From Protonemura montana (lineage: Eukaryota; Arthropoda; Insecta; Plecoptera; Nemouridae), in contig OX387602.1 of the NCBI GenBank assembly GCA_947568835.1, positions 32,398,242-32,462,241 on the forward strand: a stretch of DNA of 64,000 bases. Direction: 5' to 3'. How positions within the stretch are numbered: position 1 is the first letter of the stretch; every line of letters begins with the position of its first letter. A program made the position numbers and the translations under genes. Positions 18,734 through 52,900 of the stretch are shown piece by piece. The notes below the pieces were generated by a model. The model searched no databases and had not been told where the DNA came from. It saw nothing but the letters and a program-made list of their open reading frames with translations.

Positions 18734-21700
18734 TCAGACTGGGATTGAGTGGTCCATGGATCCTCGGAGGAGGCTGACGTTCATCCTGCAAGAACAAAGA
18801 GATCACAATCAACATCACATTTCCAGGACAAGTGTTTTGAAGATGATTTCATCAACGCTGTTTAAAATTCTCTTCATCGCCGTATGTGATTGAATTCAAT
18901 CGGCGCAGTAATTTGTTTAAAACAATGATATTTTAATAATTGCAAACCAAGAAACTATGACAACACACGAAGAACAAGAATAAAATAGTTTTCAACAATG
19001 TGTTTGCTTCGAAACGGAATATTTGGTGACTTGGAAATACAAACAAAATATCAATGTGACTTCTTACTCTGACCTCCAAATGACAGTTGAAAAGTTAAAC
19101 CCCGGTCTTCCAGGTTCAAATATTAAACAATGATTTGAACAGAGAGAAAATAGTGACGGATGCTAAATTACATTTCTTTTATCTGACAGAACAAAGTCTT
19201 CCTGAATCATCAACAAATTCAAATTTAAATTTACATATTTTTTGTGTATTTATTTAAAAATTCTCTTTGAAATCTTTCAAATCAGCTAAACAGGTCTAAA
19301 AACGTTTCTTCTCAAAATCAATAAAAAAAAAGATATTGAACCACAGATGAAATCTTATTTAAATTGCAAACGCTTGCAATGCTCGGGGTATTTTATTATT
19401 ATTAACACTAAAACCGTCTCAAAAATGAGTAATAATTAGTCAAATTAGTAATAAAATATCGTTCCCAAAGAAAACAATGAAAGGGTGAAGCTGAATTGAT
19501 TCCGTCGTTGAATAACAAGCGATGAAGTTTGTGTCAACTTACTTTTTGACCATGTGTTCGTAGACAAAGGTTGGTATGACTGTCACCGTGACGACAGCGT
19601 CAGATCGTTCTATGATCGCGGTGATCTCCTTGTCCTTGATCCCGACAACGTTCTGTCCGTCGACCTCCAATAGATGATGTTCTGTCAGCAAACCGTTGCG
19701 AGCTGCCGAGGAATCTTTCACCAAGCCAACGATCGCTCCGTTCTTGAAGCTGAAGCCGATGTGACCAGCAGAGTCTTTGTGCAGCGTTACCGTCCGTTCA
19801 AACGGCCTGCGAACATGAAACTATAATGTCATTCACGGAGCCTCAACTTATTTGTAGCTAACAAAAACTATTTCAACTGGGTTTTCAATGCTAAGTGAAG
19901 GACAACTGAATTTCCCAACGTTTCGTAACTTGTACCTGTTACTTTATCAAGGGTAAGAGCAGTCCTGACAATTTTCCAATAACAAAAGAACCACATAACA
20001 TTTTTATTTATATTTTGTTATTGGAAAATTGTCAAGACCCAGTTGAAATAGTTTTTGTTAACAGTCAAGGCTGCAGAGAAAGTTCAAATGCTAAACTGTC
20101 AGCAGCAAAGATGGCTGCCAAATGACTGTTTACCAAAACATATAAAGAATCCTCACAAGTCACAGTTATTCATCAGTTATTCCTCGAAGATTACTCGGAT
20201 TTGAGACTGATTTACGCTAAATTAATCTTTATTCCTGACAACTTGAACGATTTGCGCAATGTTACGATGTGTTCTTCAGTTTTGCTCCGCGTCCAAGAGG
20301 TTTGCGGCCCTAAAAAAAGGTCTCACGTATCGGGTATCGTAAAATCAAACCTAAAAACAACAACTTAACAATTCACGAAGGTCAACAAATCATCACCTGT
20401 CCCGCACGACCACGCTGATGCCGTTGACGGGACTCTTGCGGAAGAGATCGTGGACCTTGTCCATCGTGAACCCGGCGACCACGACGCTGTTGACCTGGAG
20501 GATCTGGTCTCCGAATCGCAGACCTGCCAGCGCAGCGGGTGAAGACTTGCTGACCAGGCACACGAAGACTCCGTTGTTGATGGCCTGGACACGAACCCCG
20601 ACCTTCCCCGACCCATCCTTGCAGATCGTTAGCTGCAAGAAGTCAACGAAGTCAAGCTAGGGGCACACCCAACCTTGCCCAAACCATTCTTTAATTCATT
20701 GAGTGATTTCCTTTATTGGGTTTATTGAGTTTTGGGGCCGGGACCACGAGAATGGCGTAGACCGGGGTATAAAGCACTTGGGATTCTTTCCTTACCATGT
20801 CATTACATTTTGATTGTATGTCTGCGTTTTTTTGAGACGGGTGGTAAGACAAGGGGTTGCCTCAAATTGTATCCACAAGTTTTGCAGGCTTAAAATGACT
20901 TAAAATAGCGTTGAACAGGCAGGCAACAAACTACAGTCCGCGATAAGGGAGGCAAAAACTGACGTTAAATACTTCGAGAAACAACTCAAATCATAAACAA
21001 TTTTTATAGTTTAGACTAATTCTTGAAGGTTTAATGTAAATTAATCTTGTATAATATGTGATGATTTTAAAGTGCTGGACCGGATTTACACAGACAAGCT
21101 TTGAATACTTGGATTGTAAAATTAAATAACAAATAAATAAAAATAAAAACATATAAATCCTCTCAAGAATTATATGTCCACGTAGTTTGACTGGTAAAGT
21201 CACCATCTACAACAAGTAAGGATCAATGTTTGCATCCGTGTTTGACTAATAATTTGTAAGAAATTATTAGTGTCTCTAATAATAAAATACACTTTGCATC
21301 CATTTGCAATTTAAATTCAGATAACATATTGATTTCATCTTTAATCATCTGCTCTAGTGATGGTCATTTTAAAACATATACCCCTCGAATACCAATTAAC
21401 AATTTATAGCTTGGTTGATGTCTTAACGAAATCCAATTACTTTGGTGAGAATGTTCGTTACGTACCTCGCGAATACCGTGCGTTACTTGAGCTCTTTGCA
21501 GGCCGACAGATTGGCCGGAAAGTGGAGCTACCATCCCAGCGAGCGGGCCGGTTCTTGCTTGCTCAGCCAGAGCACTCTGTCGTCAATACAAGACAATATA
21601 ATCAATCTCACTTTGAACCAATGTGCTTGGCAAGAAAACAATCTAAAGGTACGAGTAATAAAGGTTGTCTTACCGGTTGAGGAATGGCAACGGCAAAGTT

Positions 21701-22110
21701 GCGAGAAATCATCTCCTCGGTGAGTTCAAGTCCCATGTATTCGTTCAGTTCTGGGTAGAGCAGGTTGGCATGTTCTACAGGAGCGTTTGGCATGGGTTGA
21801 TGGACCAACGGGTAAGGCAACTGCGCCTGAACATTCGGAGCTGCGTTTAATGCGGCCTGCTGGTCGTATGATTGTTGAGCCTGCAAGGAATTAAGTATCA
21901 ATCACGTAATGTAAATACTTGATATATTTCGCACCAAACTCTGACTGAAATCATGATTATACCAGATCGTGCATATTTCATTGACATAATTCCCGTTCTC
22001 GCCTTTTGGCCAATGTCACAAGGGATATTAATTTTCATCAGACCTATTAATTTACTCACCCTAGTCAACTGGTCGATTTTCATATCCTCCAATGATGGGT
22101 ACAGAGACAT
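18734..22110 (-). CDS. SDCBP: Syntenin, tandem-PDZ adaptor of syndecans and exosome formation
   Basis: Syntenin binds C-terminal tails of syndecans and other membrane proteins through two PDZ domains and works in endosome sorting with ALIX. Six exons join in phase: 22110-22060, 21880-21674, 21576-21466, 20632-20397, 19806-19543 and 18785-18734, giving 306 residues. The start [13 protein letters not shown] matches the conserved family N-terminus. The N-terminal region has the [16 protein letters not shown] segment typical of the ALIX-binding part. PDZ1 is in the fourth exon ([18 protein letters not shown]) and PDZ2 in the fifth ([39 protein letters not shown]). The C-terminus ends DHSIPV where vertebrates have DHTIPEV. 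Introns carry a MITE copy, a SINE fragment and a hammerhead-like repeat. It is head-to-head with TP53I13. Identity is firm. Confidence 0.96.
18845..19225. repeat. MITE-like repeat, truncated copy in the last SDCBP intron
   Basis: Closely similar to 3349-3740, including cttggaaatacaaacaaaat and ccccggtcttccaggttc. The terminal inverted repeats are degraded. Confidence 0.75.
19345..19435 (-). repeat. tRNA-derived SINE tail fragment
   Basis: It contains gatgaaatcttatttaaa, the palindromic caaacgcttgcaatg block and a start of the accgtctca block. The tRNA-like head is absent. Confidence 0.7.
19857..20060 (-). repeat. Dispersed repeat with hammerhead-like core, minus-strand copy
   Basis: Reverse complement of the family at 5625-5762. 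A short part of the end is duplicated at about 20010-20060. It lies in the SDCBP intron between the two PDZ exons. Confidence 0.8.
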
Positions 22111-22955
22111 GTTTGCTGATGGTTTGTAGAAGTAAGTTTTGGAGAGAATCTAACGAGGAAGCACACTTCGAATCCCAGCAAATTGTTCAGTAGCTGTTTG
22201 ATGAGAAATCTGTAATTACGACGAATTAGCACAGGTTTAGGTGGAGACGATGGCAACGTCGAACTAGAAACAACTCTTTGATTATGTGACGAGCTAAGCT
22301 TTGTGATTCATTGCGTTGACGTTTGTCACATGACGAGAGCCTGGCAGATAGCTATGCAATCAAGGTTACCGCGTGCGCATGCGTTCAAGCAGAACTATTA
22401 CGACTGGACACCCCTGACTGCCCCAGGCCATGCTGCTGTGACATTTGCATCGGATCAAATGTCAGATTTGAATCGAATCGATTTCAGCTCTCGCGCGGAT
22501 TTGGATGTGTTGACACGTCCTCGGGGGGACTAAATAGAGCGTCGCGACGCCACAGAGCTGGCTCCTAGATTCCCAGACCTTCGTCCTTGTTGACACTTTG
22601 AAGCTGTGCCTCAGCTCGCAATCTCAGCCGGAATATCTTAGCTGTCTTCTCAAGAAATTAAAATGAGATAATGGTCCTAGGACAAGTGCAATCATGAGTT
22701 AAAAAAAAATTAGCTGCCCTAATTTTCGTGACATATTGGTAAGTACCGGCAGAGAAATATTGCTAAAGAACTAAATGTGATGTGATCTTTCAAAGCCCCT
22801 GTCCAGCCAATGTTTTGTGGAAATTTAATCGATCATGGGACATCAAATCTTTCATCCATACATCCAAAGTCCATTTGAAGAACATCCATTCGAAGAAGAG
22901 AAATAGTTAATAATAATTTATGTGGATTTATTTTAGTATCTGAAGGTCTGGCAAG
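22111..22955. promoter_or_regulatory. Divergent promoter region of SDCBP and TP53I13
   Basis: The start codons of the two genes are 845 bp apart and point away from each other. The interval contains an NRF-1-like palindrome tgcgcatgcgtt at 22374-22385 and a CLEAR/E-box-like gtcacatgac at 22325-22334. Transcription starts cannot be seen. Confidence 0.5.
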
Positions 22956-25900
22956 ATGAAAGCCATCATCTGCATCATTCTACTGGCTGCTACATTTAAG
23001 GAATCAAAGTGTCTGTCAGCTTCGGATGCCGTTGAATCCTGGACAGGTCGCTGGCTCCCGGAACGTAAGATCGACCGGATGGCGTTGACTCGTTCCCAGC
23101 TCGACGATATCACGGATCCCAAGCATGGAGTCAAGATGGGCGTGATCTCTAGCGATTGTGACGATGCCAAAGTATGCAGAATTTCATCACAATTTTGACA
23201 AAAAGTAAAACATGTATCAATTCGACTCAAGAATTTGGTGGAAAGTGTTTTTGTAAAGGAGCTCCAAATCGGAAGGATTGTAAAGGGAATTGTTTTACCC
23301 CAATATTTGTTATCCATCTCGATTGGCTATCAGTCCGAGAGTAATTACGTGTCTTTCATTTGTTGTCAGAGGAGAGAGAGCGATGTTTTGACAGCAAAAC
23401 TTAAGGTTTTCATTTGAATCACGATCATATCTTGGAGCTAATCTACGCTTTTAAAGCCAACATTTTAACTTTCCGTAGCTATTTCGACCGACTCGTAACT
23501 GAAATTGTTTTGAAATTGGTTTTGCAGACCAATCTTACGCTCGACTGGGACAACTCTCCGTTGGACTACTCGTGCTACGCTGCTAGATTTGTTCCGTCGA
23601 CAAAGACGAAAGCGCTCGAAGAATTTGAAAACATTCCCAAATATTACAGTGCGATGCATGCGTGTATGAACCAGTCTATTACGTACACGGAGGCCGTACC
23701 AACGTTGTAAGTACACACAGATTTACAGCTTAATTTCACACTTGTAACCACTTATCTTATCAACTCAATCCTGCAACGCATTACTAAAGCTTATGAATAA
23801 TTAGATCGTAATTCACACAATGTTATTTGCATTGTGTTTTAAAAATGAAGCCATGATAAAGCTGCTCTTACCCTTGATAAAGTAACAGGTACAAGTTACG
23901 AAACGTTGGGAAATTCAGTTGTTCTTCACTTAGCATTCAAAACCCAGTTGAAATAGTTTTTGTTAAAACTTGAATAACCTCTCAAAAGATTGTAAAGTTT
24001 CTATCCCTGGTTCCCCGACTCTGCTCTAGCGGGACCCACCGCCCTCTGTGGCCACGCTACGGTGAGTACAGGTTCTTGCCAGCGCAGCGCTGGGTTCACA
24101 GCCTGGAGCACGGCGCAGTCGTCATGTTATATCATCCCTGCGCAGACCCAGCGCAAGTACATCGCCTGCGCACGGTTCTACGAGCTTGCCTGCGCAGGCA
24201 TGTCATCACTCCCAGCGCAAGGCTGTCAAAACTTCGGGTAAAGTATCAACTTGATATCAACATTTTCATTGCGTTGAGATCTGATTTCAGTTCCAATTTT
24301 CCAGTTCACACATTTTCAACACTAAAACATAACGTCTGGCTTCTGTCTTGCAAGCCCCACTTCATTAACCAACAGATCCTGATCCTGACTTGCACAGATA
24401 ATAGGGAAATCTCATTAAGATAATTATTTAATTATTATCATTGTGTTCAAATACGCATTCAAAATAAAATCTGACGTATTTTTTCTTTTTATAATCCGAT
24501 CATAACTTTTCTATTTATATTTGTTTTAAGAATGGCTAAAATATGAATTCTCGTGGCGGGATTAAAACGGGCTGTGATTAACTACACGTAGTTCTGACGT
24601 CATTTTGTTGTTTCCTTTGCGTTCGCTTCTGTTTCTTGACGTCAGATTTCACTTCATGTCATAAAAAATGGCGACCCTCGTTTTCGTACGAGATTCAAAC
24701 GCAAACATTTTAAACAGAGATATTTTATTCAAAATTGGATTTAGAAGAAAATAAAAAACTACAAGTTCATTATTTTCTCACAAAAAAAATTTAAAAAATA
24801 GTTTTAAATTTAAAGAGATTTCCCTGTTCAGGTAGCAAGCACCCTTGTCTGATCCCACCCTGACCTCTTCCAACTCAACTCCTCTACCCGCTCCCACGCA
24901 ACAAGAAGTAGGAATAATATTCAAGCTACTTCCCAGTCATTCTAATACTCAACCCACTCTATCCATGCACCAACCTTACAAACCAACTCAACCCACTCTA
25001 TCCATGCACTAACATTACAAACCAACTCAACCCACTCTATCCATGTACCAACCTTACAAACCAACTCAACCCACTCTATCCATGCACCAACCTTACAAAC
25101 CAACTCAACCCAATCTATCCATGAACCAACATTACAAACCAACTCAACCCACTCTATCCATGCACCAACATTACAAACCAACTCAACCCACTCTATCCAT
25201 GAACCAAAATTACAAACCAACTCAACCCACTCTATCCATGCACCAACATTACAAACCAACTTCCAGCACAAATAGTAACATCTTACAAACATTCAATCTT
25301 CGACTCCAGCCTCTGAAACTTCATTCTACTGCCGAGTTAAATACCAATCTTCCACGAACAAACCCACATAGAAACACATTTACTATTTAGAAAGCTTTTC
25401 CCATTTCCTAACTTTAACCATCAAAATATGCATCAACATCTCATGTAAATATTACTGTTTATTCAGACTGGAAAACTGACGGAAACCTATACAACCGTTG
25501 TGGTTTTCTTGACTTGGGTTCTAGGTTTGAAAATGTAATCTACAACCTCCAGTGTTTCTTGCCAATCCATCTTCCAACTTCCCATTACTAGTAAATCATT
25601 ACTTGATTTCTTGACTTCGGTCCTAGGTTTGATATGAATAACAGAAAATAAATATCTGTGACCAAAGGGACATTACCTTTATTATCGTTTAAGTAAAGCG
25701 AGAATATGTAACTTACCGAGCAATGAATGGCAGGCCGCGGCAGTGGATACTTGTTCGTCAACATTGGCTTGATCAGCGGAGAGAAGAGATTGATAAAGTA
25801 GGCAGGATTTAACAATTAGGATGAAATCTTATTTAAATTGCAAACGCTTGCAATGCGCGGGGTATTTTATTATTATCAACACTATAACCGTCTCAGAAAT

Positions 25901-26632
25901 TGATGTCCAAACGGAGACTCAAACCCCGATCTCCACCTGTCGCGGGTGTTGCTCTAACCAATTGAGCTACTTGGATCCCGATCTCCACCTGTCGCAGGTG
26001 TTGCTCTAACCAATTGAGCTACTTGGACCCCGATCTCCACCTGTCGCGGGTGTTGCTCTAACCAATTGAGCTACTTGGACCCCGATCTCCACCTGTCGCG
26101 GGTGTTGCTCTAACCAATTGAGCTACTTGAACAACGGTTTTTTGAGACGATTTCAGTGTATTTGATGAGAATGACGGATCTCCAAGGAGTAGAATCAAGA
26201 GGCTGTGAACACTCACAGTCACTCTGATTCTAGTGACGCTATATCACGTCACAACCTGTCAATCTCGAGTAACTCCAATTTGACGTTGGATTCGTTGCTG
26301 TATTAGGATGAAATCTTATTTAAATTGCAAACGCTTGCAATGCGCGGGGTATTTTACTATCGAGTCTGCGTTTGGACATCAATTTTTGAGACGGTTGTAG
26401 TGCTGTTAATAATAATATTTAACAATTGTTTCAGCCGCTAGCGCTGGTTACGTGGGGCGTACGACTCACGATGTCGTGGGTTGATGAGGATCTTGCGACT
26501 TCATTCGTGCAACAGAACGCATTGCACGGACCGGAACAGGTCTCGCGGGACGGACAGTTCGACGCCGGTCTACTGGTTCCAGCAAGAACCGTATCCGATC
26601 TCAACGACTCCACGCTTTGTCCAAATCTTTGA
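22956..26632 (+). CDS. TP53I13: TP53I13-like secreted or luminal protein
   Basis: Four exons join in phase: 22956-23171, 23528-23706, 24030-24237 and 26435-26632, giving 266 residues and a TGA stop. A hydrophobic N-terminus ([14 protein letters not shown]) followed by small residues looks like a signal peptide. The diagnostic part is exons 3-4: [48 protein letters not shown] and [18 protein letters not shown], which match the vertebrate tumour-protein-p53-inducible-13 family (related to DUF3105). It is shorter than the human protein (about 390 residues) and ends soon after this domain, without the C-terminal membrane segment I recall there. A further exon is possible, but the frame closes with TGA before any donor. 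The molecular function is unknown. It shares a divergent promoter region with syntenin. Confidence 0.88.
23863..23965 (+). repeat. Dispersed repeat with hammerhead-like core, short copy
   Basis: It contains the core and tail only, in the intron between TP53I13 exons 2 and 3, about 65 bp before an acceptor. Confidence 0.8.
24945..25265. repeat. 39-bp minisatellite, about eight copies
   Basis: Units contain caactcaacccactctatcc with small variants. 39 is a multiple of three, so a 115-codon frame runs through in both directions; it is not a gene. Confidence 0.95.
25820..26305 (-). repeat. tRNA-derived SINE with its tRNA-like head repeated four times
   Basis: On the minus strand the element runs from a left part shared with 33553 and 38561, through four 52-bp copies of the tRNA-like head (25911-26135), to the tail at 25820. 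Each 52-bp copy holds the A-box-like tagctcaattggttagagc. It lies in the last TP53I13 intron. Confidence 0.9.
26306..26412 (-). repeat. tRNA-derived SINE, truncated copy
   Basis: Tail blocks of the family without the tRNA-like head. It abuts the previous copy and ends about 20 bp before the acceptor of the last TP53I13 exon. Confidence 0.75.
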
Positions 26633-30202: not shown

Positions 30203-30283
30203 TCACAGGCCAACATAGCCGGCGATCGTCGAAGCAACGATCACGCCGAGAATAGCGAGGCAGACCATGATCATGATCTTCTT
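30203..30283 (-). CDS. Syx1A: Syntaxin-1 alternative terminal exon 9a (membrane anchor)
   Basis: After TCCTGCAG the exon encodes [19 protein letters not shown] and seven more residues before TGA, 26 in all. It resembles the vertebrate syntaxin-1A anchor ([19 protein letters not shown]). It is the distal exon of the pair; using it requires skipping exon 9b. Confidence 0.9.
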   Translation of the reverse strand, partial: KKIMIMVCLAILGVIVASTIAGYVGL

Positions 30284-33200
30284 CTGCAGGAGAAAAGTCA
30301 CAAAACGAAGAATAACAAACGGTTATCGTCGACAGCCGAGTTTTCTAGGTTAGAGTTCGAGAGACAAAGTTAAGCTGACAGATCGAACATTTCTGTTATT
30401 TCTCACAGATTACTCGCATTTTAAACTGGTTTACACTTGAATAATCTTTAACAAAGCTAACAACAACGATTGATGAACATGAAACTCAATATTTTGAGTT
30501 GTAATTATTTCAAAGCTGAGTTTTTGTTTTTTTTGAAAAAAGCCAACCGTCACCACGCATTGCCTTCTCTGACGATAACCTACAAACTCGACCGTGCAAC
30601 GTTGCCAGACGCTCAACTCAAACGCTAGCGCAATGCGGTGTTGCCGTTTTGTCATTTTCTGTGGCAAATTTGAAATGTGTTTTTGCCAAAACGGACGTTT
30701 AACCCTGCAAAGTGTGGGAAGAAAGTCGACGAAATAATAAGATGCAAGAACCAGTTCTACCAGTTTGTACGTAAACAAAACTTGATATTTTTAAGAAACA
30801 TAGGAATACAGGCTTAAGTACAACGGTGTAATTACACAGGTAATTAGTCGGGCTACGCCAACTTGGAAGTAATGAACATTGATAAAAATAGTTTGAAAGT
30901 GTGCGAACGTCGAGGAGGCGACCGCCCTTTGCCTAGATTTTGCTTTACTTTCGTGTCCCTGGCGATAAATTACTCGGCTATTATGCAAAACAGAAACAAC
31001 AGTTTACAACACTAAAACTATAAAATGAGTTGGATTATTTTACAACTAATTAACAGGATAAGTAGGTTTATAATTATATATTTATATATAAACAACTGGG
31101 ATTGCCATGACAACCTTGGGTCCAAGATTAGCTGTCCAATCTTTGCAAGACTTGGGTCCAATCATTGACCGATATACACATATAAATTGAATCCGTTGGC
31201 TGATAATTGCTAATCAGCGTCAATCCCAGCCGCATTATAACGTTAGTACCAAGGACTTTGATATCACTACTTACATAAGACCCTTCGCTCGATCGATCGG
31301 TCGGATGAAAGCTACGAATAAAAGACGGCTACCGCAGTTCGACGGAAGCTAGCTCCGTCGCCCCGGGAAGCAACGCGTTGGCGGCGACAACAAACATTGA
31401 GGTTAGGTTACGCTCGGGCAATCGCGGATTATTGCTCTACGTAAACTGGCGGACATCGAGGCTTCCCGTTTTGCCGCGAAAAAAAAAAAAACCTCACAAA
31501 ATAGATCCTCAAACATTGGACGATCGACCGACCGTAACGTCGTCTACTTTTATGTGAAACGAGGATAAGAATTTGTTCAACTTTTTGATGTCTGCGTACA
31601 TATTTTCGACAGCGTGGAAGATTGATTTAGGCAATTTAATTGTGTTGAGCCCTTTGACACTAGTCCAATAGCTCTAGCCCAGTAAAACAGCCAAAACAAT
31701 AATTAAAATAATGAGTGCTATTGTCAGGCATATGATGATCATGATTTTTTTCTGCAAAAAAACAGAGAACGAAAAACAATAATTATTAAACGAAAAAAGA
31801 ATGCAAAACGTGGCTTTTATACGGCAAAAAAATGAGACCAGACAAAAGGGGGAGCAAACTTGAATGAATCGGGACTCAAACTGGCGTTGAAACTGATTGA
31901 AATGACAGGAACTAAGCAAGTGACAGTTGAATGGGGTTAAATTGACGAGATAATAAGTAGGTCCCCTGTACGAGGCTAGCGACTTGAAAAGTCAGGGTCG
32001 CTGGATACAAAAGTGCGATCGGTTTTAACAAAGGAGACTTTCTGTGCTCGTTACAGACAACATTAAGCAAGCTGGATGATTGAAGTAGAAAACAAAATCA
32101 AACAAAAGATAACACTAGTGAAGTGGAAAGTAAAACATTTAGGGCCGATTTCACAAAAAACTGATTTAAATTATCTTTATTTAACGTTCAGCAGGTGATT
32201 TGGAAATTGAGAAAATATGGATCGCTCAACTTCTCGGCTTAATGAGCATTTGTATCTCATTCTGAACTCATCTGCCATCTAGCAGCAAACTGTCACACTG
32301 TGTTTAAGTGTCATGATTTATTGCTAGATGGCAGCAGTGGTTCAGATTATGCAGCCGAAACAGCTGTGCAGCGAAACGGAATATTCGGTGTCCAAATGAC
32401 AGTTTAAAAGTTAAATCCCGTCCTTCCAGGTTCAAATATTAAACAATGATTAGAAGAGAGAAAATAGTGATGGATGCTAGATTTAATTTCTTTTATGTGA
32501 CAGGACAAAGCCTTCCTGAATATCAACAATTTCAGATTGTAAATTTACATGTTTTTTGTGTATTTATCTGAACATTCTCTTTCAAATTGTCAGCTAAACA
32601 GGGCAAATCATTTTCACAGCAAAACCTTCCTGTGAACGCAAGATTAAATCAGGCATCAGTGAAATCGGCCACGAGTTTACCTACTGTAAAAATAAGCATC
32701 CGACCGGGCCATCATTCCTCACGACACTAAAAAACGTCTAAAACGTCTGAAATTACCTTTCGGCTCTTAACAGAATACTCTTCGGCGATCTCCATCTCCT
32801 TCTTGGCCTTCTGCACGTGGTCCGTCGACTGGGTCACATGGTACTCAACCCTGTCCACCAACTCACCCTACGGTTTGGTCGGCGGGAAGTCGGGGCGGCG
32901 GGGGTTCGGGGGACGGGACGAGGTTAAAGCACAACAACCAGAGGAACAAACATTCCATCGCAGACACCACCACGGTTAATAGATTACACATCGATGAGCA
33001 CAGAAAATGACAAAAGGAACAAACACCAGACGAGTTACAAGAGAGAGAGAGACAGAGAAACACACGTCGACAGAAGCAAGAGAAGTCATTTGTGAACGAC
33101 GGTGACACATATGGAGAGAATTAGTGAACAGAGAAAGAGAAATGCGGTCGGATGGAGAGACGTGAGAGGAATCCGGGACGAGGAGGAGGAGAAAAAAAAA

Positions 33201-36200
33201 AAAAAAAACAGGAAAAAAACCGATTAGAATCTGCGTAAAGTTTTGGTTGTCGTGACTCACCCGACGGGCCTTGCTCTGGTACTTGAGGGCTTTCTTTGTG
33301 TCCTGCGTCGCCGTCTGCACGTAGTCCACCGCGTGCTCAACGTGGTACTCAATCCGATCGATCATTTCGCCCTGAATCGGTCATGTGTGGCCGGGAGGAG
33401 GAAGAGAAGAGCCCAGAACACATAGGAGTTAGTTCGGGATGCAAGACCGGAGATACCATCAATACAACATTGATACCTTCATGCCTCGAGCTAAGAAGCC
33501 AGACCTTCATGCATTCACAAGCGAAGAAGCTTTTGTTATTATTATTAGGTACACTTTGACAGGTTGCGACGTGATATAGCGTCACTAGAATCAGAGTGAC
33601 TGTGAGTATTCACAGCCTCTTGGTTCTACTCCTTGGAGATCTGTCATTTTCATCAAATACACTGAAATCGTCTCAAAAAGCCAGTGTCCAGATAGCTCAA
33701 TGGGTTAGAGCAACATCCGCAAAAGGTGGAGATCGGGGTTCGAGTCCCCGTTTGGGCATCAATTTTTGAGACGGTTATAGTGTTGATAATAATAAAATAC
33801 CCTGCGCATTGCAAGCGTTTGCAATTTAAATGAGATTTCATCTACTTTGGTCAAAATTGCTGGCCAAACGGGGACTTGAACCCCGATTTCTGCCGATCCA
33901 GCCAACTACGACGCAAACAAAATACACAAAAACCCTTTAGAGCTTGTTACGCTTGCTTTGCGAAGACCAGTTTGTTTGAATGTCATGCCGTGAAACTTGC
34001 TGGCGTTTTATTGCTAGAGCTGAAGGCCAACATTAATGTGTTAATACAGGTTTTGAAGCCATGATTTCTGTAGGTATATCTACAATATTGGCTGCATGCG
34101 ATGGATGGGCTTGGTACTAGCGTTGAGTGCAGGTTCTTGGTAGAGAAACAACGTCAATGTAACAGTCTCTGCGTGAAAGATGGCCGCCAAATGACTACCT
34201 TACCGACAAAAATGCAGAGTACCGGAACATCACGTTAAGTGGAGCCACTGTCGTATGAAATTTAATTTTGATATTTCTCGTATTTCGTTTTTAATATCGT
34301 TACGTGTTTATCAATCGTTGAGGTAAACATTGATGGAGAATTTTTGAGCATGAAAAGTCGCAAAAGCGAGTTAACCTACGAGAAATATTGAAATTAAATT
34401 TCATACGACAGTGGCTCCACTTAACGTGATGTTCCGGTACTCTGCATTTTTGTCGGTAAGGTAGTCATTTGGCGGCCATCTTTCACGCAGAGACTGTAAC
34501 ATTGACGTTCTGTCTCTACCTAGAACCTGCACTCAACGGTTCTAGAATATTGGCTGCATGCGATGGGGCTTGTACTAGGCTACTGGCTTGGGTTGGTCTA
34601 CAGGTAACTGGTTGGAGGAAGGTTTCTACGAGGCTCCATAGCAGCATGCAAAGGCAAAGACAAGAGAAGATCGAATACGGCAACAAAAATCAACGCTCGT
34701 CAACCGAGCGAATCACTCGGCTGTCAGGAACAAAATCACGTTCTCCACAGTCGCTAAAAATCGATTATTAGCCGACGGCAATCACTGCAAGATGGATACG
34801 ATTGGGCACGGGTGATTTTCCAGCACACTTTCCAGCGGGTTCACGGTAGGGTTGCCATAATAAAAATTTCGGAAGGCGGGAAAAATTTTAACAAATGAAA
34901 ATTAGTTAGGCCGGAGGCTCGGGGGACAGACAGAGCTCCCCAAAAATTAAGGGTGTCGATGTGGGAACAGGATTTGAGGGCCATTTTCAGCAAATTTACA
35001 CGTTTTAGATATATTAAGGTTTTTCTTGGCACTTGAAATCCTGAGTCATATTTATGCATCAACTTTCAATTTCTCAGCAGCAGGAAATTTAGGTATAATT
35101 TGTATAACTATTTGAAAAAAAAATGTAACCATAGGTTTTAAAATTTGTTTATGGGTGACAGTTGACGTACAATCATAATGTCATTGGCACGATAAGAGGA
35201 ACAATTAGCTATTTATAAGGAAAAATGCTAATGCAATGTTCGATTTCGCGATTTTTTGAAATAAAATTACGATTGAGCGGGATTTTTGAGTGAAAAGCGG
35301 GACGTATGGCAACCCTAGTTCACGGACATCATTCACGTGGGAAACAAATGGAAAGTGTTCTGGAATCCCACCGATCTCCGAGCGAATACGACAGAGAATT
35401 CTGTCGTTTGACACAAACGACCGCGAGGGCACAAAACATTTCACAAACCTAACGCCGAACCTAAAACAAACATCTTCGTAGTAAATCAAGAATCCGGCTT
35501 TAAATTCCTGGAAGTGACAGCTGATTGCCCAAATTTAAATGCACAATTTTCCACTTTTTGCACATATTTGAAGCTTTGAAGACATGAAATTTGACAACGT
35601 GCTATTGGCCAATCGGTAGATCTGTCAAAGTCTGGACTTGACTTAACCTGCATATGAAATGTTATGTCCTGACAAAGCAATACAAGGGTCTAAGTTGAGA
35701 TAGCGTCAATGTGCTCTGCAAATTTGCTTGAAATCTTATTGGATTAGAGAAGGAAAACAAACAAAAGATTAATATCCAAGATTTAGCTTTGTTCATTGAA
35801 TATGATTCAGTATTTTGAACGCAGGCGACCAAATCTGGCATCAACGTTGAAGTGCCACAACCTGACTTCTAAAAAATACAAATTGTTCGGAAGAAAAATA
35901 AAAGTGTTTACAAAAATATTAATGAAACGTTAATTAGTGAAACTCACGTGGGTCAATGTCAACAAAAACTTTATAATAATATCATAAACAAAATCATAAA
36001 CAAAATCATAAATAGTAAAATGATTTAATCTAAATTCGATGCAGATGTGAGGTTTTGCAATTTTTGTAATTTGCATGGATATGCGAGGTTTCGCCACAAA
36101 ATTACGCAATTTTTTTCGTTAAATTTTTCATAAATTGACTCTTTTTTTGAAAAAAATTGAGATGTCAGGTTCTGCCACATAACCATTGATATAGTATTGC

Positions 36201-39200
36201 AAGATATTGCAAGATATTGCAAGTTATTAAAAGATATTACAAGATATTGCAAGGTATTGCACGGTATTGCAAGATATTGCAAGGTATTACAAGATATTGC
36301 AAGATATTGCAAGGTATTGCACGGTATTGCACGGTATTGCAAGATATTGCATGGTATTACAAGAGTTAATGTTACTTTACCTGGCTTTCGACCAACATGG
36401 CCATGTCCATGAACATATCGTGCAGCTCTCGAATGGAGTTCTCCAGTTTAATGATGTCTGCGTGCCTGGCTTCGATGTCTGCTAGCGTCTGCTTGGCTTG
36501 TTGGGTCTCCATTATTATCTGTCCAGACAAACAAACACTATCAACATCATCAATCATCACATTTTAACTTAACATTCTCATTATATTTTCGCCAAATTTT
36601 GCCTCGGGACAATTTTTTAGGGGTTATTTTCCTCACGGTTCCCCCTGGCGTTTGTTCTGAAAGAACTGTACAAATTATTGCTCCACTTGCTACGGCAGTA
36701 ACCAACTTCTCTACTGCGCACCTTTAAGCCAGGTCCAAAGTTTTGGAGGCTTTCGATTTTGGAAGTTTCCCTCGTCCAAGGTTTTGAGTTTGGTCCAAGG
36801 TTTTGAGCCTGGTCCAAGGTTTTGAGCCTGGTCCAAGGTTTTGAGCCTGGTCCAAGATTTTGAGCTTACCCCCTGCGTGAATACCGCCGAGTTTCCCTGC
36901 TCGAGCATCTCTTCGAGTTCTTCGTTGGTCGTTGTCCTCCCAGTGATCTCAAGTTGTCTCTGTATCCGGCCTTTGCATCGCTCCCTAAGAAAACAAAATG
37001 TCGGTCAATTTCAACAAAATTTCAAACAATTTCAGCAAAAAGTCATGAAAATATCATCAAGTATCATCAACTCACCTGTAATCTGTCTGCGTTCTGTTGT
37101 ATTCCGTCATCACTTCGACGAACTTGCGCGACAGCGTCGAGTGCTGAGTCTTTCGTATCCGGAGATCAGCAGACGACTTGTTTGTGTGTTCTTCCTGTTC
37201 TATGTTCTGTTCTATCACTGTAAACAACAACAACAACTACTACTTGTTCAACCCACATTACATAACATAACATAACATAACAGCACGGTTAGGTTAGGTT
37301 AGGTTAGGTAAGGTTTGGATAGGTTAGGTTAGGTTAGGTTAGGTTAGATATTGTTAAGTTAGGTTAGGTTAGAAATGGTTAGGTAAGGTTAGGTAAGGTT
37401 AGGTTAGGATAGAATAGAGTTAGGTTAGATATTGTTAAGTTAGGTTAGATATGGTTAAGTTAGGTTAGGTTCGGTTTGGATAGGTTAGGTTAGGTTTAGT
37501 TTGGTTAGGTTAGGTTAGGTTAGGTTAGGTTCGGTTTGGATAGGTTAGGTTAGGTTAGGTTAGGTTAGATATTGTTAAGTTAGGTTAGGTTAGAAATGGT
37601 TAGGTTAGGATAGAATAGAGTTAGGTTAGATATTGTTAAGTTAGGTTAGATATGGTTAAGTTAGGTTAGGTTAGGTTAGGTTTGGTTAGGTTAGGTTAGG
37701 TTAGGTTAGGTAAGAAATGGTTAGGTAAGGTAAGATTAGGATAGAATAGGGTTAGGTTAGATATTGTTAAGTTAGGTTAGGTTAGGTCAGATCAGGTTAG
37801 GTTAGGTTAGGTTAGATAAGGTCAGATCAGGTTAGGGTTCGAGGACATAAGATGTGTTTAACTCACCCTTTAATTTGGCACGGACTTTATTGGCTGTTTT
37901 CTTGATGTCAGCCATTAGATCCTCGAGTTCTTGCTTCACCTCTGCAACAAAAAGACGGCCGCGTTACTTGACGCTACACTTTGTTATATCAACTCGAGAT
38001 GAACTGGAATCACAAAGTCTAGACTTTATTCCCAGCTTACGGTTACCAGGACAACGCGAACCTAAGTCGAGTTGTTGGATGAGCGAAGTGAAACAATATG
38101 AAGCCTGGACAGATCGAAACAAAACAGCAGAAGTTCACAAAATGAAGTCAGAAATTTGTGAATAAAAAGAGAAAACGAACACTTGCACAACTGCCATCTT
38201 TGCAAAGTGTCGATGTAAAAAAAAAATAATAACTTTGGCGGCACAATTTCGAAAAGTTTATACAAAATCTGCATATTTTCGTAAATTCTCAGAAAAAATA
38301 ATATTGGAGCAAAATAATATTGAGGGTGATTTACAATTTGTCGTGCGTCAATATATCAGTAGGGCCCTGGTCTGCCAGACGTGGTTGAGATCAGCGGAAC
38401 TCACGTTCATTTCTGAGCGCCTGATCATTTCAACCAAAATAATTTCATATAATAATAATAGTATAAAGAATACCCCGCGCATTGCAAGCGTTTGCAATTT
38501 AAATGAGATTTAAACCTAATACAGAAACGAATCCAACGTCAAATTGGAGTTATTCGAGTTTGACAGGTTGTGACGTGATATAGCGTCACTAGAATCAGAG
38601 TGACTGTGAGTATTCACAGCCTCTTGGTTCTACTCCTTGGAGATCCGTCATTCTCATCAAATACACTAAAATCGTCTTAAAAAGCCAGTGTCCAAGTAGC
38701 TCAATTGGTTAGAGCAACACCCGTGACAGGTGGAGATCGGGGTCCAAGTAGCTCAATTGGTTAGAGCAACACCCGCGACAGGTGGAGATCGGGGTCCAAG
38801 TAGCTCAATTGGTTAGAACAACACCCGCGACAGGTGGAGATCGGGGTCCAAGTAGCTCAATTGGTTAGAGCAACACCCGCGACAGGTGGAGATCGGGGTC
38901 CAAGTAGCTCAATTGGTTAGAGCAACACCCGCGACAGGTGGAGATCGGGGTCCAAGTAGCTCAATTGGTTAGAGCAACACCTGGGACAGGTGGAGATCGG
39001 TGTCCAAGTAGCTCAATTGGTTAGAGCAACACCCGCGACAGGTGGAGATCGGGGTCCAAGTAGCTCAATTGGTTAGAGCAACACCCGCGACAGGTGGAGA
39101 TCGGGGTCCAAGTAGCTCAATTGGTTAGAGCAACACCCGCGACAGGTGGAGATCGGGCTTCGAGTCCCCGTTTGGGCATCAATTTTTGAGACGGTTCTAG

Positions 39201-43900: not shown

Positions 43901-46900
43901 TTATGATGGTTATTAGACTCATGTCTACTTGATGTAAACTTAGCACTAGTTTTAACAAAAACTATTTCAACTGGGTTTTCAATGCTAAGTGAAGAACAAC
44001 TGAATTTCCCAACGTTTCGCAACTTGTACCTGTTACTTTATCAAGGGTAAGAGCAGTCCTGACAATTTTCCAATAACAAAAGAACCACATAAAATTATAA
44101 CAATTACCAAGTTGAAGCATCCGCTCATTCATTGCTTTGTGGTGTTTAACTTAGCACTGTTTTGACATCTGGGCATGTAGCACTGGTCTAATGGGGTCTA
44201 TGTCAGTTAGCCACCTTCACCTGTTAGTCGCTGAAAGGCGCAAAGCGAGGCGAGGATAAAAATCTGTCATCAGACAAGTGGAGCAGGGTTAACGCCACTG
44301 GAGTGAGAATCAGAACCAAAAGCCACTGACACAGGAACCTGACGCCTTCCAGGACAGGGACAAGTCGGGGTCCCTCGTGCTATCAACCAGTACATCTGTC
44401 AGCTGACCATCATCATCATCCACAGCCTCATCATCCCCAACATCATCATTCCCAACCTCATCATCCCCAGCCTCATCATCCCCAGCCTCATCATCCCCAG
44501 CCTCATCATCCCCAGCCTCATCATCCCCAGCCTCATCATCCCCAGCATCATCATTCCCAGCCTCATCATCCCCAGCCTCATCATCCCCAGCATCATCATT
44601 CCCAGCCTCATCATCCCCAGCCTCATCATCCCCAGCATCATCATCCACAGCCTCATCATCCCCAGCATCATCATTCCCAGCCTCATCATCCCCAGCATCA
44701 TCATCCACAGCCTCATCATCCCCATCATCATCATCCACGCTGTTAGTATTCAAATGAAATTCATCGGCAGCGAACACAGAGCGTGGTTAGTTTAACCGTT
44801 GAGTGCAGGTTCTAGGTAGAGTTTCAACGTTAATGTTACAGTCTCTGCGTGAAAGATGGCCGCCAAATGACTACCTTACCGACAAAAATGCAGAGTACCG
44901 GAACATCACGTTAAGTGGAGCCACTGTCGTATGAAATTTAATTTCAATATTTATCGTAGGTTAACTCGCTTTTTAATATCGTTACGTGTTTATCAATCGT
45001 TGAGGTAAACATTGATGGAGATTTTTTGAGCATGAAAAGTCACAAAAGCGAGTTAACCTACGAGAAATATCGAAATTAAATTTCATACGACAGTGGCTCC
45101 ACTTAACGTGATGTTCCGGTACTCTGCATTTTTGTTGGTAAGGTAGTCATTTGGCGGCCATCTTTCACGCAGAGACTGTAACATTGACGTTGTTTCTCTA
45201 ACTAGAACCTGCACTCAACGCTGCCACGGTTAATTGACTGGCAATTATTTACGCGGGACATTGCTATGAGGAGCTTTCTGCCCTCGAGGGCACGTTGGCG
45301 TCGAAATCAGCTGCCGGCGAGTAATGAATACAAAATGAGGTACATCAAGTACTTGCTCGACTCCAAGGTGATTGCAATTAACTACGAGTTCAAGTCAATT
45401 TAATGCAGGTCAGAGAGAGACCAGCCCAGGATTGCCATGTGTGTGACCATCATACACATGACCATCATACACATGACCATCATACACATGACCATCATAC
45501 ACATGACCATCATACACATGACCATCATACACTTGACCATCATACACATGACCATCATACACATGACCATCATACACATGACCATCATACACATGACCAT
45601 CATACACATGACCATCATACACATGACCATCATACACATGACCATCATACACATGACCATCATATACATGACCATCATACACATGACCATCATACACATG
45701 ACCATCATATACATGACCATCATATACATGACCATCATACACATGACCATCATACACATGACCATCATACACATGACCATCATACACATGACCATCATAC
45801 ACATGACCATCATACACATGACCATCATACACATGACCATCATACACATGACCATCATACACATGACCATCATACACATGACCATCATACACATGACCAT
45901 CATACACATGACCATCATACACATGACCATCATACACATGACCATCATACACATGATCATCATACACATGACCATCATACACATGACCATCATACACATG
46001 ACCATCATACACATGACCATCATACACATGACCATCATACACATGACCATCATACACATGACCATCATACACATGACCATCATACACATGACCATCATAC
46101 ACATGACCATCATACACATGACCATCATACACATGACCATCATACACATGACCATCATACACATGACCATCATACACATGACCATCATACACATGACCAT
46201 CATACACATGACCATCATACACATGACCATCATACACATGACCATCATACACGTGACCATCATACACATGACCATCATACGCATGACCATCATACACATG
46301 ACCATCATACACATGACCATCATACACATGACCATCATACACATGACCATCATACACATGACCATCATACACATGACCAGCATACACATGATCATCATAC
46401 ACATGACCATCATACACATGACCATCATACACGTGACCATCATACACATGACCATCATACGCATGACCATCATACACATGACCATCATACACATGACCAT
46501 CATACACATGACCATCATACACATGACCATCATACACATGACCATCATACACATGACCATCATACACATGACCATCATACACATGACCATCATACACATG
46601 ACCATCATACACATGACCATCATACACATGACCATCATACACATGACCATCATACACATGACCATCATACACATGACCATCATACACATGACCAGCATAC
46701 ACATGATCATCATACACATGACCATCATACACATGACCATCATACACATGACCATCATACACATGACCATCATACACATGACCATCATATACATGACCAG
46801 TTCTGTTCGGGAGAGAGGTTGGAGGGACGAAAGTTAAGCAACACTGCGCTGGGTCAGGTATTGGATGGGTGACCATCATACACATGACCAGTTCTGTTCG

Positions 46901-49900
46901 TGAGAGAGGTTGGAGGGATGAAAGTTAAGCAACACTGCGCTGGGTCAGGTATTGGATGGGTGACCATCATACACATGACCAGTTCTGTTCGGGAGAGAGG
47001 TTGGAGGGAGGCAAGTTAAGCAACACTGCGCTGGGTCAGGTATTGGATGGGTGGTATTGTTGGCAGTTATTGGTAAGGCTCACGCTTCTCCAGCAACAAT
47101 GTGAAGGATGGGGCTGCTGCACTGGAGCCCTGCACACGATCCGCCACTGGACCCACTCGACCACGGCCAGTACAGTCGTGTCAACCTAACCTTGCCACAG
47201 TCTGGTGGACTCTGACTAAATGTTGCCAACTTTAGAATGAAAAATAAAGTCAGACTTCACCGGGGAGTTTAAAAACTAACCAGAAAATTATGAAGGAACA
47301 ATAAATCTCGCATTTTAATTCTTCTGTGAATTGATCAGTTTATTTACGTGAAATTAATTATATTGAAAAATAAGAACTTAAATTCAAAACTAAAAGTCCT
47401 AATGGCTTCTGCTAAATACCTCAATATTCTAGCAATGGCTGCCAAAGAGCGGTTTGCAAGCTTGGGTGCATGCCAACCTGATAAAAGTTAAAACTAACCC
47501 GCAATATATTAATTTCAACTTTGCTTGATTAATATTAATATTATTTTTCATTTAAAATTTATTTCTACTGAAATTAAGAAATGTAACAACCACAGAAAAT
47601 TCATTATTTTGTTGCTTTTAAATCGGACAGCTAACAGTGGCATCTTGGTATCATGTTTTCATCAGAGGGGGGGTATCTGCCCCCCCCCCCCCCCCTGACA
47701 AGTCGACCCCATGTAGTTCCCGGAACAAGACTAATTCAATGATTCCACCAGGAATAACAAGACTAACGCATTGTAAGGCCAGCCGCCAGGGGGCAGGGGG
47801 GGCAGGGGTGTCAAGGGGGGGGGGGGGGGGCAGGGAAGGGGGCGGGCCGGTGGGCGTATTGATCTGTAGGAATGTTGTCACCACTTCTGTATGTGTGTGG
47901 AGGGCTAGGTGGGATGGGGGCGTCAAGGTGTGAGCCCATTGTTATTTTTGTTACAATCAGAGCCGCCGGCAGAAGGAAGAATTGGTGTCTAATGTCCAGG
48001 AAAATCAGGCGCTTTTATGTTCTGACAGATAAAGAAAGTCCCACTCATAGCGATCAAAGAAAACAACTGTCACAAGATAAATGTCCCTTTGTGAGGCAAC
48101 GACACACACTTAGCAAAAGTCGAGGACAGATGAATGTACTCAACAAATTCCGTTCAATTCCAATAAGCAAGGCGAGTGAAGTTGCTGTACTAACTTTCAT
48201 CCCTCCAACCTCTCTCCCGAACAGAACTGGTCATGTGTATGATGGTCACCCATCCAATACCTGACCCAGCGCAGTGTAGCTTAACTTTCATCCCTCCAAC
48301 CTCTCTCCCGAACAGAACTGGTCATGTGTATGATGGTCACCCATCCAATACCTGACCCAGCGCAGTGTAGCTTAACTTTCATCCCTCCAACCTCTCTCCC
48401 GAACAGAACTGGTCATGTGTATGATGGTCACCCATCCAATACCTGACCCAGCGCAGTGTTGCTTAACTTTTATCCCTCCAACCTCTCTCCCGAACAGAAC
48501 TGGTCCTGTGTATGATGGTCACCCATCCAATACCTGACCCAGCGCAGTGTTGCTGAACTTTCATCCCTCCAACCTCTTTCCCGAACAGAACTGGTCATGT
48601 GTATGATGGTCACCCATCCAATACCTAACCCAGCGCAGTGTTGCTTAACTTTCATCCCTCCAACCTCTCTCCTGAACAGAACTGGTCATGTGTATGATGG
48701 TCACCCATCCAATACCTGACCCAGCGCAGTGTTGCTTAACTTTCATCCCTCCAACCTCTCTCCTGAACAGAACTGGTCATGTGTATGATGGTCACCCATC
48801 CAATACCTGACTCAGCGCAGTGTTGCTGTCGAGAGGTTGCTAAGCAAGGCGAGTGAAGGTATGAGTCATCAGGTGACAGGTGCTAACGAGTAGTGACGTC
48901 ACTGCTAACGAGTAGTGACGTCACTGCCAGGTGGTTATCTGCTATCAGCTGTTATCGCGATGTCGACCGGCCACCAAGGTCGATGTAGACGATAACACGG
49001 CATGAGTCAGATGCGACGAAACTTTGCTCGTGTTTCGTGAAGGTATCATATTGGCAGTGGTTAGGTTAGGTTAGGTTAGGTTAGGTTAGGTTAGGTTTGG
49101 TTTGGTTAGGTTAGGTTAGTTTAGGTTAGGTTAGGTTAGGTTAGGTTAGGTTAGGTTTGGTTAGGTTAGGTTAGGTTAGGTTAGGTTAGGTTAGGTTAGG
49201 TTAAGATAGGTTAGGTAAGGTCTGGTAAGGTTATGTTAGGTTAGGTTAGGTTAGGTTTAGTTAGGTTAGGTCGGGTTAGGTTAGGTTAGGTTAGGTTAGG
49301 TTAGGTTAGGTAAGAATAGGTTAGGTTAGGTAAAGTCAGGTTAGGTTAGGTTAGGTTAGGTTAGGTCAGGTCAGGTCAGGTCAGGTCAGGTCAGGTTAGG
49401 TTAGGTTAGGTGAGGTTAGGTGAGGCTAGGTTAGGCTAGGTTAGGTTAGGTCAGGTCAAGTATGGTTTGGTAAGGTTAGGTTAGGTTACTTTAGAATAGG
49501 TTAGGATAGGTTAGGTTAGGTCAGGTTAGGTTAGGTAAGGTTACGATAGAATAGGTTAGGATAGGTTAGATTATGTTAGGTTAGGTTAGGTTTGGTTAGG
49601 TTAGGTTAGTTTAGGTTAGGTTAGGTTAGGTTAGGTTAGGTTTGGTTAGGTTAGGTTAGGTTAGGTTAGGATAGGTTAGGTTAGGTAAGGTCTGTTAAGG
49701 TTAGGTTAGGTTAGGTTAGGTTAGGTTAGGTTAGGTTTGGTTAGGTTAGGTCGGGTTAGGTTAGGTTAGGTTAGGTTAGGTTAGGTTAGGTTAGGTAAGA
49801 ATAGGTTAGGTTAGGTAAAGTCAGGTTAGGTTAGGTTAGGTCAGGTCAGGTCAGGTTAGGTTAGGTTAGGTTAGGTTAGGTGAGGTTAGGTGAGGCTAGG

Positions 49901-52900
49901 TTAGGCTAGGTTAGGTTAGGTCAGGTCAAGTATGGTTTGGTAAGGTTAGGTTAGGTTACTTTAGAATAGGTTAGGATAGGTTAGGTTAGGTCAGGTTAGG
50001 TTAGGTAAGGTTACGATAGAATAGGTTAGGATAGGTTAGATTATGTTATGTTAGGTTAGGTTAGGTTAGGTCAGGTTAGGTTAGGTTAGGTTAGGATAGG
50101 TTAGGTTAGGTTAGGTCAGGTTAGGTCAGGTTAGGTTAGGTCAGGTCAGGTTAGGCCAGGTTAGGTCAGGTCAGGTCAGGTCAGGTTAGGTTAGGTTAGG
50201 TGAGGTTAGGTTAGGCCAGGTTAGGTTAGGTTAGGTTAGGTTAGGTCAGGTCAGGTTAGGTTAGGTTAGGTTAGGTAAGGTAAGGTTACGATAGAATAGG
50301 TCAGGTTAGGTTAGGTTAGGTTAGGTTAGGTTAGGTTAGATTACGTTAGGTTAGGTTAGGTTAGGTCCGACCCGAAACGTAACGCAGTAGTGAAGCTGAA
50401 GCAATTGGCACACAAATCTATCTGATATTATCTTTAAGTCTGGAAATAAAACAAAACAACTGTTGTTGTTGTTGGTTGCCAGGTTCGCGGCAATCTTAGT
50501 TCATCTGTCTTAAGAAGAGTCAACTTTCCATGATTGCGTCATACGGTGAGGGGTTGGGGTTGGGGGAAGGGGGGGTTGGGGGGGTGATTGACCTGTTGAA
50601 CAAATCCTGGGGCCACGTTGATTGGCGTGGTCGAAACACAACGAAAGACATCGTCCTCAAGTGCCTAGAGTCAGGGGAATCATCATCCTTAGCACATCAA
50701 GTCAATACCATCATCACCCTCAGAACATTATGCCAACTAAATCATCAACCTTGGAACATAAACTAGGGGCCATCATCACCATTAGCACTAAAAGTCAATG
50801 GTATCATCACCCTTAGCACTAAAAGTCAATGGTATCATCACCCTTAGCACTAAAAGTCAATGGTATCATCACCATTAGCACTAAAAGTCAATGGTATCAT
50901 CACCATTAGCACTAAAAGTCAATGGTATCATCACCATTAGCACTAAAAGTCAATGGTATCATCATCCTCCCTGCATTAAGCAAGACTCGGGCCTGGATTT
51001 GCTTCTAAGGAAAGTTTCTTGGCGATGGAATCTTTTGGTACGGTTTAAAAATTCAGAACCCGCGGCCGGATTTAGAACTTGTTGTGGGAACCAGAGACGG
51101 AACCAAACTTAATATCAACCAATCAGGGTTCAGTATCAGTTTGTGACGATTGATTGTGGATTTAATTAGCTCGGTAATTATCAACTTGTTCTTCGTTGAA
51201 CTAAACATATGTCGTGTTAACAACGCTCAAGCTACCAACACGACATTTTTAACAATTCCTTGGATCTCTTCGATCAAATGCAATAAAATTTCATTGGCTT
51301 CAAGAGGTAAATAACAACTATTACCACGGGTAAGTCAAATAGCCATAAAATCCCGTACACCTAGTTGGTTTGTTGGTAAAAAACTCCAATTTGTTCGGGA
51401 ATTTATTTCCGAAAATACAAAATACGTTAGTTTTTGAGTTATTGACTCTGATTATTTTATTGAGATGCATTTAGGAAGCTTGAACTTGGTAATTGTTATA
51501 ATTTTGTGTGGTTCTTTTGTTATTAGAAAATTGTCAGGACTGCTCTTACCCTTGATAAAGTAACAGGTACAAGTTACGAAACGTTGGGAAATTCAGTTGT
51601 TCTTCACTTAGCATTCAAAACCCAGTTGAAAAAGTTTTTGTTAAAACTTGTGCTAAGTTTACATCAAGTAGACATGAGTCTAAAAACAATAATATTCCAT
51701 TTTTGTTTTTTTTTAGCTTATCAATGCTAACTTTGCTGATTCTCTGCACCCCACGATGCACCACGATGCACCACGATGCACCACGATGCACCACGATGCA
51801 CCACGATGCACCACGATGCACTACGATGCACCACGATGCACCACGATGCACCACGATGCACTACGATGCACCACGATGCACCACGATGCACCACGATGCA
51901 CCACGATGCACTACGATGCACCACGATGCACCACGATGCACCACGCTGCACCGCGACGCACCACGATGCACCACAATGCACCACGATGCACCACAATGCA
52001 CCACGATGCACCACGAGGCACCACGATGCCCCACAATGCACCACGATGCACCACAATGCACCACGATGCACCACAATGCACCACGATGCACCACGATGCA
52101 CCACAATGCACCACGATGCACCACGATGCACCACAATGCACCACGATGCACCACAATGCACCACGATGCACCACGATGCACCACGATGCACCACAATGCA
52201 CCACGATGCACCACAATGCACCACGATGCACCACGATGCACCACAATGCACCACGATGCACCACAATGCACCACGATGCACCACGATGCACCACGATGCA
52301 CCACGAGGCACCACGATGCCCCAACCAATAGAAAGCCTAAGAATGGTACACAAAAGCTTGACTTACTCTCATCGGTCTGCGGAGCGGAGAGAATCGCACT
52401 ATGCTTCTTCTTAACTTCTTCCACATTTGCTTGGATTTTGTCGATCATCTCCCGTATCTCTTCAACCTGCAACATGAAGCCACACGGATCAAACACACAA
52501 TCATCTCCCGTATCTCTTCAACCTGCAACATGAAGCCACACGGATCAAACACACAATCAACTCCCGTATCTCTTCAACCTGCAACATGAAGCCACACGGA
52601 TCAAACACACAATCATCTCCCGTATCTCTTCAACCTGCAACATGAAGCCACACGGATCAAACACACAATCATCTCCCGTATCTCTTCAACCTGCAACATG
52701 AAGCCACACGGATCAAACACACAATCAACTCCCGTATCTCTTCAACCTGCAACATGAAGCCACACGGATCAAACACACAATCAACTCCCGTATCTCTTCA
52801 ACCTGCAACATGAAGCCACACGGATCAAACACACAATCATCTCCCGTATCTCTTCAACCTGCAACATGAAGCCACACGGATCAAACACACAATCATCTCC

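Follow-up and report, generated by a model that had tools for sequence, protein, structure and literature searches.

In this work we describe the syntaxin-1 gene of Protonemura montana (Insecta; Plecoptera; Nemouridae), in which the C-terminal half of the SNARE motif appears to be encoded by two alternative exons. The window analysed is a stretch of 64,000 nucleotides (assembly GCA_947568835.1, contig OX387602.1, positions 32,398,242 to 32,462,241; coordinates below are those of the window), and the whole gene lies within it on the minus strand (57436-30203). Seven upstream exons and four alternative 3' exons, all on that strand, were located through tblastn with a Drosophila protein, reading of the sequence and a check of the joined frame. 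Exon 1 (57404-57436), which provides the start codon and 11 protein letters, was placed by sequence pattern and its open joined frame, while exons 2 (56829-56915), 3 (52367-52466), 4 (37867-37941), 5 (37076-37217, where the joined frame is likewise open) and 6 (36870-36984) are supported by tblastn, sequence reading and joined frame, and exon 7 (36381-36518) by tblastn and sequence reading. Exon 7 ends ...MLVESQ, and we take its final Gln to be the zero layer of the SNARE motif, with layers +1 to +8 assigned to exon 8 on the same presumption; rat syntaxin-1A aligns at this Gln. Downstream lie exons 8a (33261-33371, located by tblastn) and 8b (32757-32867, examined by tblastn, resampling and neutral simulation), separated by an intron of 393 nt (32868-33260), followed by two transmembrane-anchor exons identified by tblastn and open frame: 9a (31674-31751; 25 protein letters and a stop codon) and 9b (30203-30283; 26 protein letters and a stop codon). 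A preliminary description of this stretch had drawn attention to the exon 8 pair, and the second anchor exon is an addition to the picture it gave.

All four combinations of 8a or 8b with 9a or 9b are open, yielding proteins of 292 (9a) or 293 (9b) residues. Both isoforms ending in 9b exceed the Pfam cut-offs for the syntaxin domain (PF00804, 144.6 bits in each) and for the SNARE domain (PF05739, 73.8 bits for the 8a form, 51.8 bits for the 8b form), and a comparison of the 8b isoform with the PDB returned Syntaxin-1A at E = 8.6e-114, the first eight rows all being Syntaxin-1A. With either anchor, a basic juxtamembrane KARR or KSRK leads into KK and then into hydrophobic residues that run to the stop codon. 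Together, the domain, PDB and anchor evidence identifies the predicted product as a syntaxin-1 type plasma-membrane Qa-SNARE; the protein is close to Drosophila Syx1A, and of its two anchors 9b is nearer to the one usual in syntaxin-1. Over the 9,999 bases read, a 15,885-base contig of the genome appears to encode ND2, COI, COII, ATP6 and COIII in code 5, in line with an arthropod.

Both exon 8 alternatives, 8a and 8b, have a length of 111 nt, are bordered by AG and GT, and stand in phase 0 at both ends; the borders, the joined frame and the end of exon 7 thus bear out the preliminary description on length, on phase and on the position of the pair directly after the zero-layer Gln. Shared length and frame are by themselves weak proof of a relationship, since of the 555 segments of the form AG-111 nt-GT that the window contains, 91 have an open phase-0 frame, and it is homology that carries the case. 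The two exons agree in 16 of their 37 residues and in 67 of their 111 bases, tblastn with the 8a peptide recovers 8b at E = 6.7e-9, and the full-length ungapped score between them is 93, compared with 22 at the next best place in the window and a maximum of 31 across 60 Markov resamples of it. These values lead us to reject the suggestion that 8b is a chance reading frame. Being adjacent, homologous and equal in length and phase, 8a and 8b have the layout expected of a tandem mutually exclusive pair. Across the 258-Mb genome, the Pfam SNARE profile finds 31 matches at E <= 10, of which six exceed the curated cut-off, including 8a (50.2 bits) and 8b, the latter passing on its own (30.2 against 26.8 bits); the remaining four we take to be Syx16, Syx5 and two Syx7/13-type genes. 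A genome search with the 8b peptide at E <= 1 returned two places only, 8b itself and 8a. Since 8a is the sole other match, 8b arose, by these sequence comparisons, through duplication of 8a or of an ancestor of 8a, and derivation from another syntaxin gene is disfavoured.

Both copies also show signs of coding constraint. In a Nei-Gojobori comparison of 8a with 8b, dN is 0.46 and dS 1.19, giving a dN/dS of about 0.39, a within-genome estimate whose dS is imprecise because it derives from just 22.7 synonymous sites. Replacement changes are unevenly distributed, with dN of 0.29 over the first 63 nt and 0.76 over the last 48 nt, dS being similar in both parts. In a neutral simulation of 20,000 copies of 8a, with base identity set equal to that of 8b, an open frame survived in 21.6% of the copies, 16 or more identical residues in 3.4%, and residues that are small or hydrophobic throughout the eight layers in 18.7%; all three properties occurred together in 49 of the 20,000, which disfavours 8b as a pseudo-exon left by neutral decay. 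The lack of any indel in 111 nt despite 44 base differences makes such decay less likely still. Taken together, the homology, dN/dS and simulation results confirm, at the level of sequence within one genome, that 8a and 8b form a real and constrained exon pair of syntaxin-1.

The differences between the two peptides are concentrated in their C-terminal part (residues are numbered as in rat STX1A). Among residues 227-237 only 3 of 11 are changed, all conservatively, with D231, R232 and E234 retained, whereas 18 of 26 are changed among residues 238-263. The claim of the preliminary description that most surface residues are altered in 8b thus applies from residue 238 onwards, but not to residues 227-237. 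Its further claim, that layers +1 to +8 keep their character, agrees with an unchanged register and a mean layer hydrophobicity of 2.76 (8a) and 2.69 (8b); however, substitution scores show no significantly greater conservation at the layers than at non-layer positions (permutation p = 0.48), and we have set aside the idea that the layers are the better conserved. The basic juxtamembrane segment, which had also been described as altered, carries a net charge of +5 at residues 260-265 in both exons; the shift in charge precedes it, from -3 in 8a to +1 in 8b at residues 238-251 and from +3 to -3 at residues 252-259. Relative to 8a, 8b loses E238, gains Lys at 246, 248 and 249, and replaces K252 and K256 with Glu. 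When compared with vertebrate sequences, 8b scores 85 against STX1A, 84 against STX3A, 78 against STX2, 72 against STX4 and 66 against STX3B (8a scores 118 against STX3A). It shares H243, K246, E250 and K263 with STX3A, and T241, K248 and E250 with STX2, and an STX3A- or STX2-type identity was rejected on these same sequences, the shared residues being few and the overall resemblance no closer than to STX1A.

That 8a and 8b are mutually exclusive, as had been proposed, is plausible. An intron of 393 nt would not impose steric blocking, and with 111 being 3 x 37 the inclusion of both exons causes no frameshift; with neither form of built-in enforcement present, a regulator would be needed. The acceptor tracts of 8a and 8b each contain 2 T in 20 positions, where the eight other exons that were scored have 8-15, which supports a regulated pair, as regulated exons often have T-poor acceptors. 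The pyrimidine fraction of the intron between 8a and 8b (0.69) is matched by none of 2,545 stretches of 393 nt (25-nt grid) on each strand. Such a composition by itself inflates counts of PTB-, CELF- and Rbfox-like words, and clusters of these words were set aside. As a lead only, a pair of GCATG words with a spacing of 28 nt (33480-33512, minus strand), about 110-140 nt upstream of 8a, provides candidate Rbfox sites; the intron between exons 7 and 8a holds six GCATG words, four of them far upstream (33988-34649), of which two fall in a duplicated 26-nt stretch. A donor-like AGG|GTGAGT (32862-32870, minus strand) overlaps both the 8b acceptor and the opening bases of the exon, where it could bind U1 and dampen use of the exon.

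We propose that an old tandem duplication gave rise to 8a and 8b, which would have been retained as two coding alternatives for the half of the SNARE motif comprising layers +1 to +8, with splicing joining exon 7 to one or the other and that exon in turn to anchor 9a or 9b. Exon 8a would provide the standard neuronal form. A syntaxin carrying 8b would be expected still to zipper with SNAP-25 and synaptobrevin, because layer hydrophobicity and the first 11 residues (including D231, R232 and E234) are nearly unchanged and it retains the basic juxtamembrane motif. Its changes in charge (E238; K246, K248 and K249; K252 and K256) would make the primed vesicle pool less stable and weaken the clamp that restrains spontaneous fusion, resulting in a form suited to tonic or non-synaptic secretion. 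We consider it probable, though well short of certain, that 8a and 8b are a regulated pair in which 8b specifies a less primed and less clamped syntaxin-1, a reading in which use in mRNA, choice of one exon or the other, tissue control and function are all inferred. The interpretation put forward in the preliminary description is, as a whole, partly supported.

Published work in mouse neurons (statements on the literature here and below pertain to excerpts of the papers) is consistent with the notion that exon choice could tune zippering and clamping, as it includes swaps of exactly this region. Replacing the C-terminal SNARE half of STX1A with that of STX2 results in a smaller readily releasable pool and a faster release rate (PMC10957171), and surface changes in this half, single and paired, raise spontaneous release, while the D231N,R232N pair reduces the pool. 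Similarly, K256E, one of the changes found in 8b, results in a smaller primed pool, in a study that terms the half from layer 0 to +8 pivotal for clamping (PMC9183232). As with 8a and 8b, the same C-terminal half is exchanged in STX1A/STX2 and STX1A/STX3 chimaeras, altering primed pool, release rate and spontaneous release; those chimaeras, however, are artificial and combine paralogues, whereas a single Protonemura gene appears to hold both versions.

Several points weigh against reading 8b as a less primed and less clamped alternative. K256E leaves spontaneous release unaffected in mouse (PMC9183232), and the increases seen with E238V and V248K are not significant, so that the clamp prediction for 8b rests on its changes in combination; the predicted smaller pool is on firmer footing than the predicted loss of clamping. 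These comparisons depend on mapping the Protonemura protein onto rat or mouse STX1A. In addition to the imprecise dS and the lack of preferential conservation at the layers, double inclusion or double skipping of 8a and 8b would preserve the frame, and exclusivity is therefore not enforced by frame.

An alternative that we regard as unlikely assigns 8a to neurons and 8b to non-neuronal tissue, in secretory or developmental roles, with each exon coupled to its own anchor (8a to 9b, and 8b to 9a). Vertebrate STX3 offers a precedent for such coupling, with STX3A using exons 9A and 10A and STX3B exons 9B and 10B. A candidate means of coupling is a perfect inverted repeat of 17 nt, with its 5' arm in the intron between 8a and 8b (32999-33015) and its 3' arm between 9a and 9b (30647-30663; gene on the minus strand): as a lead only, an RNA stem formed by pairing of the arms would place 8b and 9a in one loop, and it may also be a competing structure that enforces exclusivity. 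In 258 Mb the 17-mer is present at three places, two of which are these arms in inverted orientation, and none of 3,000 Markov-2 resamples of this intron pair reached a complement of 17 nt. Against this, 1 of 400 resamples did so when all intron pairs were considered, the duplex energy of the intron pair is ordinary (4 of 100 resamples were as strong) with the strongest real duplex located elsewhere, the same introns share a 14-nt match in the same sense, and complements of at least 14 nt are also present in 3 of 91 control segment pairs from the window. Moreover, all combinations of exons 8 and 9 are in frame, and the interval from 9a to 9b contains an ATTAAA (at 31640) but lacks AATAAA, leaving 9a unproven as a last exon.

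We consider it quite improbable that 8b is a decaying or unused duplicate, rarely or never spliced. Its weak, T-poor acceptor and the overlapping donor-like AGG|GTGAGT would fit such a fate, but the acceptor of 8a is equally T-poor, and 8b is intact over 111 nt, with neither indel nor stop after 44 base differences, combines properties seen in only 49 of 20,000 simulated neutral copies, and by itself passes the Pfam cut-off. It is very improbable that 8b is sometimes included besides 8a to produce a lengthened, inhibitory syntaxin: the frame stays open with both exons (111 nt each, phase 0), but the anchor would be shifted by 37 residues from the zippered helix, what 8b would add is a second set of layers +1 to +8 and not a linker, and in mouse neurons inserting as few as three residues where the SNARE motif meets the juxtamembrane segment is enough to impair release (PMC9183232).

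The closest counterpart to the regulated 8a/8b pair that we propose is found in vertebrate STX3, as described in the retina, in which the 9A/10A and 9B/10B exons result in STX3A and STX3B proteins that are identical up to layer 0 and diverge right after it. Their homology beyond that layer (43.1%) is close to the 16 of 37 residues shared by 8a and 8b. The Protonemura gene likewise has alternative exons beginning right after layer 0 (exon 7 ends VESQ) and alternative anchor exons (9a and 9b), and its arrangement is thus a variant of the STX3-type layout, extending to the duplicated anchor, and not a new kind. The systems differ in that the precedent lies in the STX3 gene and the Protonemura pair in a syntaxin-1 gene. 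Furthermore, STX3B, the syntaxin-1-like form, has a Glu within its juxtamembrane EARRKK, while 8b keeps a basic KSRKKK with its Glu residues before the motif, and to judge by the sequence scores above 8b is overall not specifically STX3A-like. In C. elegans, the syntaxin-1 gene unc-64 has two alternative anchor exons (there named 8a and 8b) comparable to Protonemura 9a and 9b, with the choice between neuronal and non-neuronal forms under UNC-75/CELF control; these alternatives are described as differences in the anchor, and the excerpts mention no alternative SNARE half. Vertebrate Snap25, likewise the gene of a plasma-membrane SNARE, has in exons 5a and 5b a tandem-duplicated, mutually exclusive pair on which normal synaptic function depends, although these exons concern another SNARE and another part of the protein.

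An alternative SNARE half within a syntaxin-1 gene, which the preliminary description did not know from described genes, was not found in the open-licence literature searched, as far as its excerpts extend; arthropod annotation databases, which fall outside that literature, may list such isoforms. The excerpts of PMC12470858, PMC8520396, PMC12634045 and PMC12295206 contain nothing bearing on it, and those of PMC3303723 and PMC9741552 make no mention of syntaxin under the terms searched. On syntaxin-1 genes the preliminary description agrees with this literature, but the arrangement as such is known in the sister gene STX3, and alternative anchors occur in C. elegans syntaxin-1. A highly speculative scenario would make the choice between a clamped synaptic and an unclamped SNARE half an ancient alternative-exon switch of a single ancestral syntaxin-1/2/3 gene, which vertebrates kept in STX3 while fixing the two kinds in separate genes, and which Protonemura still splices together with an unc-64-like choice of anchor, giving four proteins. 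Should sister species share 8b, an STX3-like switch would have arisen or persisted independently in syntaxin-1. If both halves are used, one gene could yield several kinds of release machinery, much like vertebrate STX3, and a syntaxin-1 gene with a standard and a strongly altered half would be a natural version of the SNARE-half swap. In such a single-gene setting, exon-specific removal could reveal the role of each half by cell.

Several further features of the syntaxin-1 gene and its surroundings were observed. A unit made up of the exon 3 3' splice site and the 17 nt at the start of that exon is present in 12 exact copies at a spacing of 56 bp (52444-53123, minus strand). This gives a dozen identical candidate acceptors, and only from the last does the sequence continue into the remainder of exon 3; as 56 is not a multiple of 3, use of the next acceptor upstream would shift the frame. 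The intron between exons 7 and 8a contains an inverted repeat (34121-34538) with two arms of 162 nt, 96% complementary and 94 nt apart, which looks like a small transposon; peptides of related appearance recur elsewhere in the window. The same intron holds a tRNA-like gene (33685-33760, plus strand), one of three found with ARAGORN and Rfam; the others lie at 39106-39178 (plus strand), bordering an array of nine 52-bp units that resemble the 5' half of a tRNA, and at 25904-25976 (minus strand). Arrays of GGTTA, the arthropod telomere unit, occupy 37287-37836 and 49059-50366 inside syntaxin-1 introns. Tandem arrays of 91 bp occur at 46779-47053, 48191-48827 and 53292-54669; we take their unit to resemble part of 5S rRNA, although Rfam gave no 5S match in them even at a relaxed threshold. 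Beyond the gene, an open frame at 23974-24423 (plus strand) has a strong DUF3105 match (81.9 bits), and a PDZ-domain exon (20393-20656, minus strand) with upstream frames (21608-22149, minus strand) lies near the syntaxin gene and presumably belongs to syntenin.

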